The position numbers and the translations under genes are program-made. A stretch of 64,000 nucleotides of DNA from contig NZ_JAVALZ010000001.1 in NCBI RefSeq assembly GCF_030730865.1, forward strand, positions 186,001-250,000, written 5' to 3'. Positions 31,301 to 35,165 of this stretch are shown piece after piece; positions within the stretch are counted from its first letter, which is position 1, and the number at the start of each line of letters is the position of its first letter. The notes under the pieces are model-generated. The model was not told the origin of the DNA. It did no database searches and saw only the letters and a program-made list of their open reading frames with translations. Origin of the DNA: Uliginosibacterium sp. 31-16 (lineage in GTDB: Bacteria > Pseudomonadota > Gammaproteobacteria > Burkholderiales > Rhodocyclaceae).

Positions 31301-33268
<1,968 letters not shown>

Positions 33269-33309: not shown

Positions 33310-33592
33310 GGGCCTCTAGCTCACGCCTGGTTAGAGCAGCGGACTCATAAAATTTGTGCCGTACGTTTGGAAACTGCGTACGGGATGGTGTCAAATTCGG
33401 CGAAACCTACGTGCGGCAACGCATATGGCAACACCGAGCCAAGCTTCAGCGTGAAAACGCTGCAGAAGGTGTAGAGACTAGACGGCACCCACCTAAGGCA
33501 AAAGCTATGGTGAAGGCATAGTCCAGGGAGTGGCGAAAGCCACACAAACCAGAATCCGTTGGTACCGAGTTCGACTCTCGGGGGGCCCACCA
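33310..33592 (+). tRNA. tRNA-Ile(CAU), interrupted by a group I intron
   Basis: Exon 1 is 33310-33348 and exon 2 is 33553-33592. Joined they give a 79-nt tRNA with acceptor stem GGGCCTC/GGGGCCC, discriminator A and encoded CCA. The anticodon stem is GCGGA/TCCGT with loop CTCATAA, and the T arm is CCGAG-TTCGACT-CTCGG. The CAU anticodon in this frame, the A37/A38 and the non-initiator stem fit the minor isoleucine tRNA whose C34 is changed to lysidine to read AUA. Odd points: the D loop (ACGCCTGGTTA) has 11 nt, two more than usual, and position 48 is A. It lies 41 bp after rpoD and has its own strong terminator. Confidence 0.93.
33349..33552 (+). ncRNA. Self-splicing group I intron in the tRNA-Ile anticodon loop
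   Basis: The 204-nt intron starts directly after the anticodon CAU and ends at the terminal G 33552. P1 forms between exon CAU (33346-33348) and the guide GTG (33356-33358), giving a U-G wobble at the 5' splice site. P2 is CCGTACG/CGTACGG (33359-33383) with a GAAA loop. P5a-like TGCG-GCAA-CGCA lies near 33412. P6a-like CAGCGT-GAAA-ACGCTG lies near 33447. The conserved P3/P7 core AGACTAGACGGCACCCACC is at 33475-33493, and P9 is GTGGC-GAAA-GCCAC (33530-33543). From memory it closely follows the ~205-nt Azoarcus tRNA-Ile ribozyme (subgroup IC3). It has no ORF for a homing nuclease. Confidence 0.95.
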
Positions 33593-33616: not shown

Positions 33617-33656
33617 AAAAGCCGGAATCCTTTTACAGCAAGGATTCCGGCTTTTT
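33617..33656. terminator. Bidirectional intrinsic terminator after tRNA-Ile and malQ
   Basis: AAAAGCCGGAATCCTT, loop TTACAGC, AAGGATTCCGGCTTTT form a perfect 16-bp stem with a T tract on plus and on minus. It serves both convergent transcripts. Confidence 0.95.
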
Positions 33657-33680
33657 ATTGGTCGCGCCATCCGGGCAAAA

Positions 33681-35165
33681 TCAGCGTCGGTAGAGTTCGG
33701 AGAACCGAAGCAGCAGCTCGCCATGCCGAGGCTGCAGTTGCGCCCAGTCGAAGCGCCATTGCCAGTAGCCTTCAGATTTTCCCGGGAAGTTCATCCGCGC
33801 CTCACCGCCTAGCCCCAGCACATCCTGCATGGGATGGATGGCTGTATCAGCCACACTGGCGCAGGCCGCGCGGATCAAACTCCAGTGAATATCGTCACCG
33901 CTGCAGGCAAGGTAGTCACGCACATGCTGGCGCTCAATCTCGCTGATCTCGTGCCACCAGCCGCGTGTCGTGTCATTGTCATGAGTGCCGGTATAGACCA
34001 CCGTGTCCGGGCTGTAGTTGTGTGGCAAATAAGCGTTTTTATTGTCACCGCCAAAGGCAAAGTGCAGGATGCGCATGCCGGGCAGGCGGAACTGCTGGCG
34101 CAGTGCGTCGACCGCCGGGGTGAGGATGCCGAGATCTTCGGCGATGATCTTCTGCGGCCCAAGTGCAGCGTCGATGGCTTCAAACAGCGCGGCGCCCGGA
34201 CCGGGCAGCCAGCGCCCCTTTATGGCGTTGGGCTCACTGGCCGGGATCTCCCAGTAATCCACAAAGCCACGGAAGTGATCGATACGCACGATGTCGACCA
34301 GCTCGAATGTGCGGCGGATGCGGGTGATCCACCAGGCGTAGTTTTCCGCAGCGTGAGCAGGCCAGCGATACAGCGGGTTGCCCCAGCGCTGGCCTTCGGT
34401 ACTGAACGCGTCAGGCGGCACACCGGCCACCACTTCTGGTTTGCCTGTAGCGTCGAGTTCGAAGAGCTCTGGCCGCGCCCACACTTCGGCGCTCTGGTAA
34501 GCGATGAAGATCGGTGCATCGCCGATGATCTGGATGCCTTTTGAATTGGTATAGGCCTTCAACGCGTGCCACTGGCGGAAGAAGGCGCACTGGCAGAACT
34601 TCCAGAAATGAATGCGCTCGGCGTGGGCGATACGCGCTTCGGCCAGTGCCGCTGGTTCTCGTCTGGCGAGTGGCGCAGGCCAGTCGCACCAGTCCTGCCC
34701 GCCGTAGTGATCGGCCAGTGCCATGAACAACGCGTAGTCATCCAGCCAGTCAGTCTGCGCGGCACAGAAATCGGCATAGGCCTGGCGCGCGGCGCTGCTC
34801 GCGCCGAGGGTGAAATTCAGCGCGGCCTCATTCAGGCGGGCCATGCGCCAAGGCACCACCGCGGCGAAGTTGGTGCTGCCCGCGGAGAAGCCCGGATCGG
34901 GCGTGAGATCAGCAGGGAGCCAGCCCTGCGCCTGCAGCTCGGCCAGATCAATCAACAATACATTGCCCGCAAAAGCTGAACTGCTCATGTAGGGCGAGTT
35001 GCCGGGGCCGATGCCCCCCAGCGGCAGGATCTGCCACAGCGATTGCCCGCTGGCAGCAAGCCAGTCTATGAACTTGCGCGCCTCAATGCCCAGATCACCC
35101 GAGCCGTGCGGCCCCGGCAACGAGGTAGGATGGAGCAGGATGCCACTGGCACGAGGAAGTCGCAT
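33681..35165 (-). CDS. malQ: 4-alpha-glucanotransferase (amylomaltase)
   Basis: A 494-residue GH77 enzyme that transfers maltodextrin segments between glucans, releasing glucose and making longer chains for the phosphorylase. It has the N-terminal SGILLHPTSLPGPHGSGDLG, the nucleophile Asp in VDIVRIDHFRG, the acid/base Glu in KIIAEDLGILTP and the third carboxylate in YTGTHDNDTTRGWW. It is the short bacterial type, about 500 residues. It is the last gene of the minus-strand run glgP-glgB-glgX-malQ, 15 bp after glgX. It ends at the shared terminator opposite the tRNA. Confidence 0.96.
   Translation of the reverse strand: MRLPRASGILLHPTSLPGPHGSGDLGIEARKFIDWLAASGQSLWQILPLGGIGPGNSPYMSSSAFAGNVLLIDLAELQAQGWLPADLTPDPGFSAGSTNFAAVVPWRMARLNEAALNFTLGASSAARQAYADFCAAQTDWLDDYALFMALADHYGGQDWCDWPAPLARREPAALAEARIAHAERIHFWKFCQCAFFRQWHALKAYTNSKGIQIIGDAPIFIAYQSAEVWARPELFELDATGKPEVVAGVPPDAFSTEGQRWGNPLYRWPAHAAENYAWWITRIRRTFELVDIVRIDHFRGFVDYWEIPASEPNAIKGRWLPGPGAALFEAIDAALGPQKIIAEDLGILTPAVDALRQQFRLPGMRILHFAFGGDNKNAYLPHNYSPDTVVYTGTHDNDTTRGWWHEISEIERQHVRDYLACSGDDIHWSLIRAACASVADTAIHPMQDVLGLGGEARMNFPGKSEGYWQWRFDWAQLQPRHGELLLRFSELYRR

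Follow-up and report, generated by a model that had tools for sequence, protein, structure and literature searches.

An Azoarcus-type group I intron in the tRNA-Ile(CAU) gene of Uliginosibacterium sp. 31-16, and related introns in inserts that split the same gene

The closest described counterpart of the locus reported here is the group I intron in the pre-tRNA-Ile of Azoarcus sp. BH72, crystal structures of which are cited in the relevant passages of a 2014 review (PMC3984707). The same passages place phage introns only in protein genes and see little evidence of horizontal intron movement between bacterial species. Group I introns in the tRNA-Ile2 genes of Acidovorax and Burkholderia are noted in a passage connected with tRNAscan-SE 2.0 (PMC8450103). 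The pertinent part of the work on Islander genomic islands describes how a tyrosine integrase splits a tRNA gene that island sequence then restores (PMC4383910). For archaea, Sugahara 2012, as cited in a passage of PMC8371274, proposed an encounter in which attP has the intron and attB lacks it. Randau and Soll, as cited in a passage of PMC4033280, proposed that split tRNA genes impede integration. Among the literature matches listed, titles and abstract openings contain no report of bacterial group I introns inside tRNA-splitting elements.

The window analysed here is a stretch of 64,000 nucleotides of Uliginosibacterium sp. 31-16. It holds an Azoarcus-type group I intron in a tRNA-Ile(CAU) gene, a new member of a known family. 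The gene and its surroundings are as follows.

31301-33268, + strand: rpoD, the upstream neighbour here and in most relatives examined (ORF; tblastn of the relatives' flanks, 33 of 36 loci)
33310-33348, + strand: 5' exon, tRNA-Ile(CAU) positions 1-36, with the anticodon CAT last (ARAGORN with introns; intron-free orthologues)
33349-33552, + strand: group I intron of 204 nt with a conserved G at its end (RF00028, E 2.3e-10; covariation; homologous introns)
33553-33592, + strand: 3' exon, tRNA-Ile(CAU) positions 37-76, with CCA encoded (ARAGORN with introns; intron-free orthologues)
33617-33659, + strand: hairpin followed by a T run, the probable terminator of the tRNA transcript (sequence; chance Rfam matches on the hairpin)
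33681-35165, opposite strand: ORF taken for 4-alpha-glucanotransferase from its protein sequence

The names of both neighbours are our assumption from the protein sequences, that of rpoD being matched by tblastn as well; the plus-strand output of the terminator scan does not contain the 33617-33659 hairpin.

A sequence-only reading had placed a tRNA-Ile(CAU) at 33310-33592 with a 204-nt element directly after the anticodon. This is confirmed by the orthologues and by ARAGORN, which with introns allowed reports one tRNA with the anticodon CAT and a 204-nt intron from gene base 40. Run without introns, ARAGORN misses the gene, and Rfam at the gathering score misses both gene and intron; since standard tools miss such a gene, annotated genomes may seem to be without tRNA-Ile2. 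In four congeners (G002, G004, G006 and G007) and in other genera the orthologous gene has no intron, its exons meet precisely at CAT/AATCC, and it occupies the same place after rpoD. The empty site agrees with the splice sites U33348/A33349 and G33552/A33553 that had been predicted. The window exons differ from those of G002 at two positions only, 15 and 48 of the tRNA in our own numbering. At these positions the window tRNA also deviates from the other six relatives with a long D loop, having C for T and A for G.

The assignment to group I is borne out by a significant RF00028 match to 33336-33545 (E 2.3e-10, 501 bases searched), though its 45.1 bits lie below the curated gathering score of 50 bits, which is a curation threshold and no biological feature. 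L036, the copy that appears nearest to the Azoarcus intron, reaches 49.1 bits and likewise stays below 50, and the gathering scan of five homologous loci, the Azoarcus-like one among them, gave no matches. The cut-off therefore misses members of the Azoarcus-type family too, and the low score of the window intron reflects a property of the model more than of this copy.

The P1-P9 structure was written from the window's copy and compared across 36 aligned introns picked from 71 non-redundant ones. Its elements are the following.

33356-33358, + strand: internal guide GTG, forming P1 with the exon CAT (33346-33348) and a U.G at the 5' splice site; unchanged throughout the 36 sequences
33359-33383, + strand: P2, 33359-33365 with 33377-33383, GAAA loop at 33370-33373; two-sided change in 6 of 7 stem pairs
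33387-33489, + strand: P3, 33387-33392 with 33484-33489; one pair changes from U-A to C-G with 100% of cells paired
33397-33437, + strand: P4, 33397-33402 with 33432-33437, around P5/P5a; C.A mismatch at 33401/33433 in the window's own copy
33406-33428, + strand: P5, containing CCUACG/UAUGG as a likely GAAA receptor motif, and P5a with a GCAA loop (alignments)
33439-33469, + strand: P6 and P6a; C-G to G-C in P6, two-sided change in 7 of 8 P6a pairs
33476-33523, + strand: P7, 33476-33480 with 33519-33523, pseudoknotted with P3; A-U to U-A with 100% of cells paired
within 33476-33523, + strand: P8, 33490-33493 with 33509-33512, enclosed by P7
33530-33543, + strand: P9 hairpin, GAAA loop at 33535-33538; two-sided change in 4 of 5 pairs

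Covariation support for this structure is strong. Over 57 pairs in 36 sequences, 94.1% of 2018 cells are paired, against 24-40% when the columns are slid by 1-3. Two-sided changes occur in 31 of the 57 pairs (shuffled mean 18.5) and in 178 cells (shuffled 41.6), and P3, P5, P6, P7 and P9 each contain them. The U.G at the 5' splice site and the terminal G are present in all 36 sequences, and the P3/P7 pseudoknot core is backed by the U-A/C-G change in P3 and the A-U/U-A change in P7. The folding test by itself is moderately supportive (z -2.59; none of 200 shuffled sequences scored as low). The P1, P2 with its GAAA loop, P3/P7 and P9 with its GAAA loop that had been read from the letters all hold, as judged by RF00028, the written structure and covariation. 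Against the structure stand unpaired rows in two P6a pairs (28 rows each), the P8 receptor pair (11), the outer P5a pair (10) and one P4 pair (6), and the C.A in P4 and T.C in P6a of the window's copy itself. The probable receptor motif in its P5 is CCUACG, with C for A relative to the CCUAAG of most rows in another alignment.

The Azoarcus sp. BH72 intron is like the window's in host tRNA, site, core, and the GAAA loops of P2 and P9. The window locus is 84% identical over 283 nt to that of G032, whose intron appears to match the Azoarcus one, and the two introns differ in length (204 vs. 205 nt) and in the P1 loop, P2, P5a and P6a; the differences in P5a and P6a that the first reading had suspected turned out to be real in the alignment. 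The C for A in the P5 receptor motif and the C.A in P4 are further features of the window's copy relative to this relative. The IC3 subgroup label of the Azoarcus intron is presumably shared. The window intron is a further naturally occurring version of this much-studied ribozyme.

We assume that the intron acts as its structure suggests. In the transcript the exon CAU would pair with the intron GUG, and a guanosine held in P7 would attack after U36. The freed U36 would then attack after the terminal G and join the anticodon loop, so that the predicted exon product would be CAUAAUCC, with the 204-nt intron freed. TilS would then modify C34 and the tRNA would read AUA. By this predicted chemistry the intron very probably removes itself from the pre-tRNA. 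Homing by an intron-encoded endonuclease was rejected: the intron is too short for such a gene, and the two listed ORFs of at least 90 aa that overlap it lie mostly outside.

In the genome assembly, which is 99.75% complete, the intron occurs once. Of its 43 tRNA matches, just two more have the anticodon CAT, namely fMet (L004) and one eMet-like tRNA (L010), and tilS is present (168.8 bits vs. a cut-off of 93.6). Because the gene is single, the other CAT tRNAs are of the Met type and tilS is there, the window gene is probably the AUA reader and would need splicing to work. The same 43 matches lack tRNA-Ile(GAT) and tRNA-Ala(TGC), so the rRNA operons are probably missing from the assembly, and a further tRNA-Ile(CAU) could conceivably lie there. 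That the window tRNA is instead an elongator tRNA-Met, as its ARAGORN label (derived from CAT) would have it, is highly unlikely given the separate eMet-like and fMet genes, the presence of tilS, and the pairs C4-G69 and C5-G68 in the acceptor sequence. These two pairs are TilS marks. Equally unlikely is a tRNA pseudogene in decay or an intron that has lost its splicing activity: the C.A in P4, the altered P5 receptor base and the changed tRNA positions 15 and 48 might point that way, but the tRNA stems and the intron core are retained, and this is the sole copy in a nearly complete assembly. Splicing as a regulated step that controls AUA decoding, the possible control point of the first reading, would fit a single-copy tRNA-Ile(CAU). 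It is very improbable, since the analysis met with no regulatory feature, some congeners have the intron and others do not, and AUA is rare (3 of the 170 Ile codons counted in six genes of the window). We are almost certain of the account as a whole, in which the only tRNA-Ile(CAU) gene seen, split between positions 36 and 37 (36/37) by an Azoarcus-type group I intron, would be spliced into a TilS-modified AUA reader.

Related introns turned out to be scattered. Counting the window's genome, the full intron is present in 6 of 61 near genomes, and an intron at 36/37 in 13 of 395 genomes of the family, a survey in which weaker places without a fetched locus were left unclassified. Three of the 13 belong to the window's genus, four members of which carry the tRNA without an intron. 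The window intron shares 78-91% DNA identity over nearly its whole length with 11 of the other 12 family members, and is matched by G159 in two pieces (87% and 76%). Of 369 genomes drawn from the class 16 gave a match, and among those classified the 36/37 tRNA-Ile type is found in the window's genome only; the others are mostly in tRNA-Leu, apart from single cases in tRNA-Ser, in an ambiguous tRNA and in tRNA-Ile at 33/34, and L132 has no tRNA call. A core pattern present in 13 of 13 was found in at least 119 stretches of named genomes and 13 of viral contigs. Among the 133 matches listed, 89 are of the tRNA-Ile 36/37 type (81 in named genomes and 8 in viral contigs). The 81 overlap in part with the 13 family genomes, and in a few cases one genome contributes two loci. 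The other 44 are of different types or broken at contig ends. In the plasmid and phage collections no place covers 80% of the query, the best plasmid match being a partial one on a Comamonas aquatica plasmid (88.7% over 37%).

Several further observations concern this wider family. A second intron position in tRNA-Ile(CAU), between U33 and C34 (33/34), is occupied by introns of about 230-260 nt in L052, L114, L118, L130, L315, L316 and L318; those of L315 (1259-1584), L316 (2558-2896) and L318 sit in the replacement tRNAs of split loci. Related introns are also found in tRNA-Thr(UGU), tRNA-Ser(UGA), an ambiguous tRNA that we took for Lys, and a tRNA called Leu(CAA) (L068 1013-1303, L070 916-1224, L125 and L127), and they are numerous in tRNA-Leu(UAA). 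Viral contigs with the tRNA-Ile intron include L265, L268, L269, L274 and L277; L265 has a terminase match, and in L268 and L269 the stretch also contains an ORF of an endonuclease family (phrog_15137). Remains of intron-bearing tRNA-Ile, in which the 3' exon and a 3' portion of the intron are all that is left, are seen in L278 (4800-4960), L280 (10290-10400) and L292 (4980-5070 and 7790-7860), L278 and L292 being from Polynucleobacter. In G797 several copies are scattered over the genome. ARAGORN inserts of 416 and 422 nt in L223 and L236 are an annotation trap, apparently because the program combines a severed 5' half with the intron-bearing tRNA that follows it.

Such severed halves are a recurrent feature. 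Among the matches listed, 32 of the 89 loci have, at a distance of 162-317 nt upstream of the tRNA with the intron, the 5' half of a tRNA-Ile(CAU) gene that has none; 31 of these halves stop after CTCAT, and the next two bases are AA in 32 of 32. None of the 8 viral loci has a severed half, and for three of the 57 loci without one the sequence available upstream is shorter than 330 nt. In the loci for which more sequence was retrieved, the search for the other half succeeded for seven inserts, each ending CTCAT/AATCC, so that the resident gene is split at CTCAT/AA. These inserts are listed by locus.

L063: 2.84 kb
L286: 2.9 kb
L285: 3.7 kb (Massilia atriviolacea)
L284: 8.6 kb (Gulbenkiania mobilis)
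L283: 10.1 kb
L278: 14.3 kb (Polynucleobacter)
L281/L282: about 24 kb

L286 aligns with both ends of L281/L282 at 97-98% over 1702, 183 and 451 nt, and therefore looks like the same element minus its middle. Pfam was run on part of the ORFs (8 of 12 in L283, 10 of 20 in L281/L282, 7 of 7 in L284, 1 of 3 in L285), and tyrosine recombinase genes appeared in two of these four inserts. In L283 a 473-residue protein right after the intron-bearing tRNA matches PF00589 at 1.6e-7 and a second protein at 7.5e-24. In L281/L282 a 473-residue protein has integrase N-terminal domains only, and a separate protein matches PF00589 at 8.4e-29. PF00589 was not found in the 7 of 7 ORFs of L284 or in the 1 of 3 of L285. 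In G013, where a severed half is present, L136 encodes a PF00589 protein (3.3e-24). An iterated profile on the locus ORFs gave three recombinase rows for two distinct proteins and was evidently too narrow, as Pfam later found more. Other cargo comprises MmeI-like domains and a beta-lactamase-family protein (L283), a DNA methylase, an SNF2 helicase and RadC (L284), AIPR (L285), and a type III restriction subunit (L281). In the sequence that separates the new tRNA from the severed half, an 11-bp tandem repeat (at least 9 of 11 matching) occurs in 24 of 32 loci, where shuffles expect 0.15. It lies 77-82 nt from the break in 21 loci, which include related and hence dependent ones. These repeats are putative recombinase arm sites.

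A sample not chosen by the intron was obtained by searching 399 genomes of the order for an exact pattern of the tRNA 5' half in which the ninth base after CAT is not G. The pattern matched in 14 of the 399, and ten of these, spread over eight families, have a severed half. The replacement tRNA carries the 36/37 intron at four of the ten split loci (G1174, G824, G1095 and G035) and a different group I intron at 33/34 at three (G1048, RF00028 E 4.5e-6; G918, E 1.5e-6; and G835). It is intron-free at two (G1150 and G972), and G1055 has no replacement within 5.6 kb, with an intact copy 56 kb away. Two further intron-free replacements, in G1134 and G1031, are among the matches listed. As background, the core pattern with one mismatch allowed was run on 325 genomes of the order, both patterns missing some cases. 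The 36/37 intron was found in 9 of the 325, namely in 3 of 8 split genomes (G824, G1095 and G035) vs. 6 of 317 others (G1021, G1028, G995, G865, G1016 and G000), which gives a Fisher p of 0.0008 with kinship ignored (0.001 with G1031 counted as split).

That inserts carry these introns is well supported. Owing to the enrichment of the 36/37 intron at split loci (p 0.0008), mobile elements look like intron vehicles: in many relatives the intron-bearing tRNA would be a replacement that arrives with an insert when the resident tRNA-Ile(CAU) is cut at CTCAT/AA, and some of these inserts encode tyrosine recombinases. When 95 distinct introns are placed on a tree, the presence of a severed half upstream, scored on looser terms (37 yes, 56 no, 2 without sequence), requires 23 changes (29 in shuffles), at least 13 of them on supported branches. 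The two tRNA backbone types change 7 times on the same tree, and inserts and introns therefore appear to have been reshuffled often.

The intron might moreover be useful to the element, interrupting the CTCATAA core in the replacement tRNA and so hiding that copy from the element's own or a competitor's recombinase. The positions 36/37 and 33/34 both fall within the core and are both used in replacement tRNAs (4 and 3 of ten split loci), and a second severed 5' half in G835 suggests that an intron-free replacement was struck again before an intron-bearing one arrived. Such a shield seems unlikely to us all the same, as the replacements in G1150, G972, G1134 and G1031 do without an intron, group I introns occupy the anticodon loop of other tRNAs anyway, and at least one 33/34 intron lies in an unsplit locus (G047, L052). 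L155 and L208, moreover, consist of foreign flank, CTCAT, intron and 3' exon with no 5' half, which suggests that in each of them a tRNA with the intron was itself cut at CTCAT; the genomes of both have an intact intron-free tRNA-Ile(CAU) elsewhere. The absolute form of the shield is in conflict with these two loci and was rejected.

The window's copy may be a resident descendant, judging by comparison with its congeners. No severed tRNA half is seen beside the window's intact tRNA (L032), and the 41 nt between rpoD and this tRNA resemble those of the intron-bearing congener G005. The best 11-bp tandem repeat upstream, within one offset range, matches at 7 of 11 positions (threshold 9). The nearest intron is that of Pseudoduganella ginsengisoli, from another family (91.2%, with rpoD at 71.8% nt), and that of G005 follows at 88.7% (rpoD 87.8% nt). 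Transfer into the window's genus is unsupported: an AU test does not reject a clade of the three intron-bearing congeners (p 0.605), and the tree grouping them scored higher. Arrival of this copy by a mobile element is possible, at a locus unmarked by element traces. The fullest scenario, in which integrative elements of Betaproteobacteria split the AUA tRNA gene in its anticodon loop and replace it with their own, introns at two core sites fend off recombinases and the window intron descends from such an arrival, is doubtful in its entirety, a shade more so than the shield by itself.

The context of the relatives matters more than the window intron and is the part that deserves follow-up. The ideas of vehicle and shield become testable in bacteria because intron-bearing tRNAs sit inside inserts that break the same gene. 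The tRNA-Ile2 introns of Acidovorax and Burkholderia resemble the window's in that they lie in tRNA-Ile(CAU) of related bacteria and are missed by standard tools, but the passage that notes them gives neither positions nor mobile-element context, unlike the present analysis (PMC8450103). The archaeal attP/attB proposal, as cited in the passage concerned, shares the idea of a mobile element as a vector of tRNA introns and differs in dealing with archaeal tRNA introns (PMC8371274). Compared with Islander islands, as the relevant part of that work presents them (PMC4383910), the inserts described here have a complete second tRNA with an intron within their left end, and they leave the resident gene as two severed halves.
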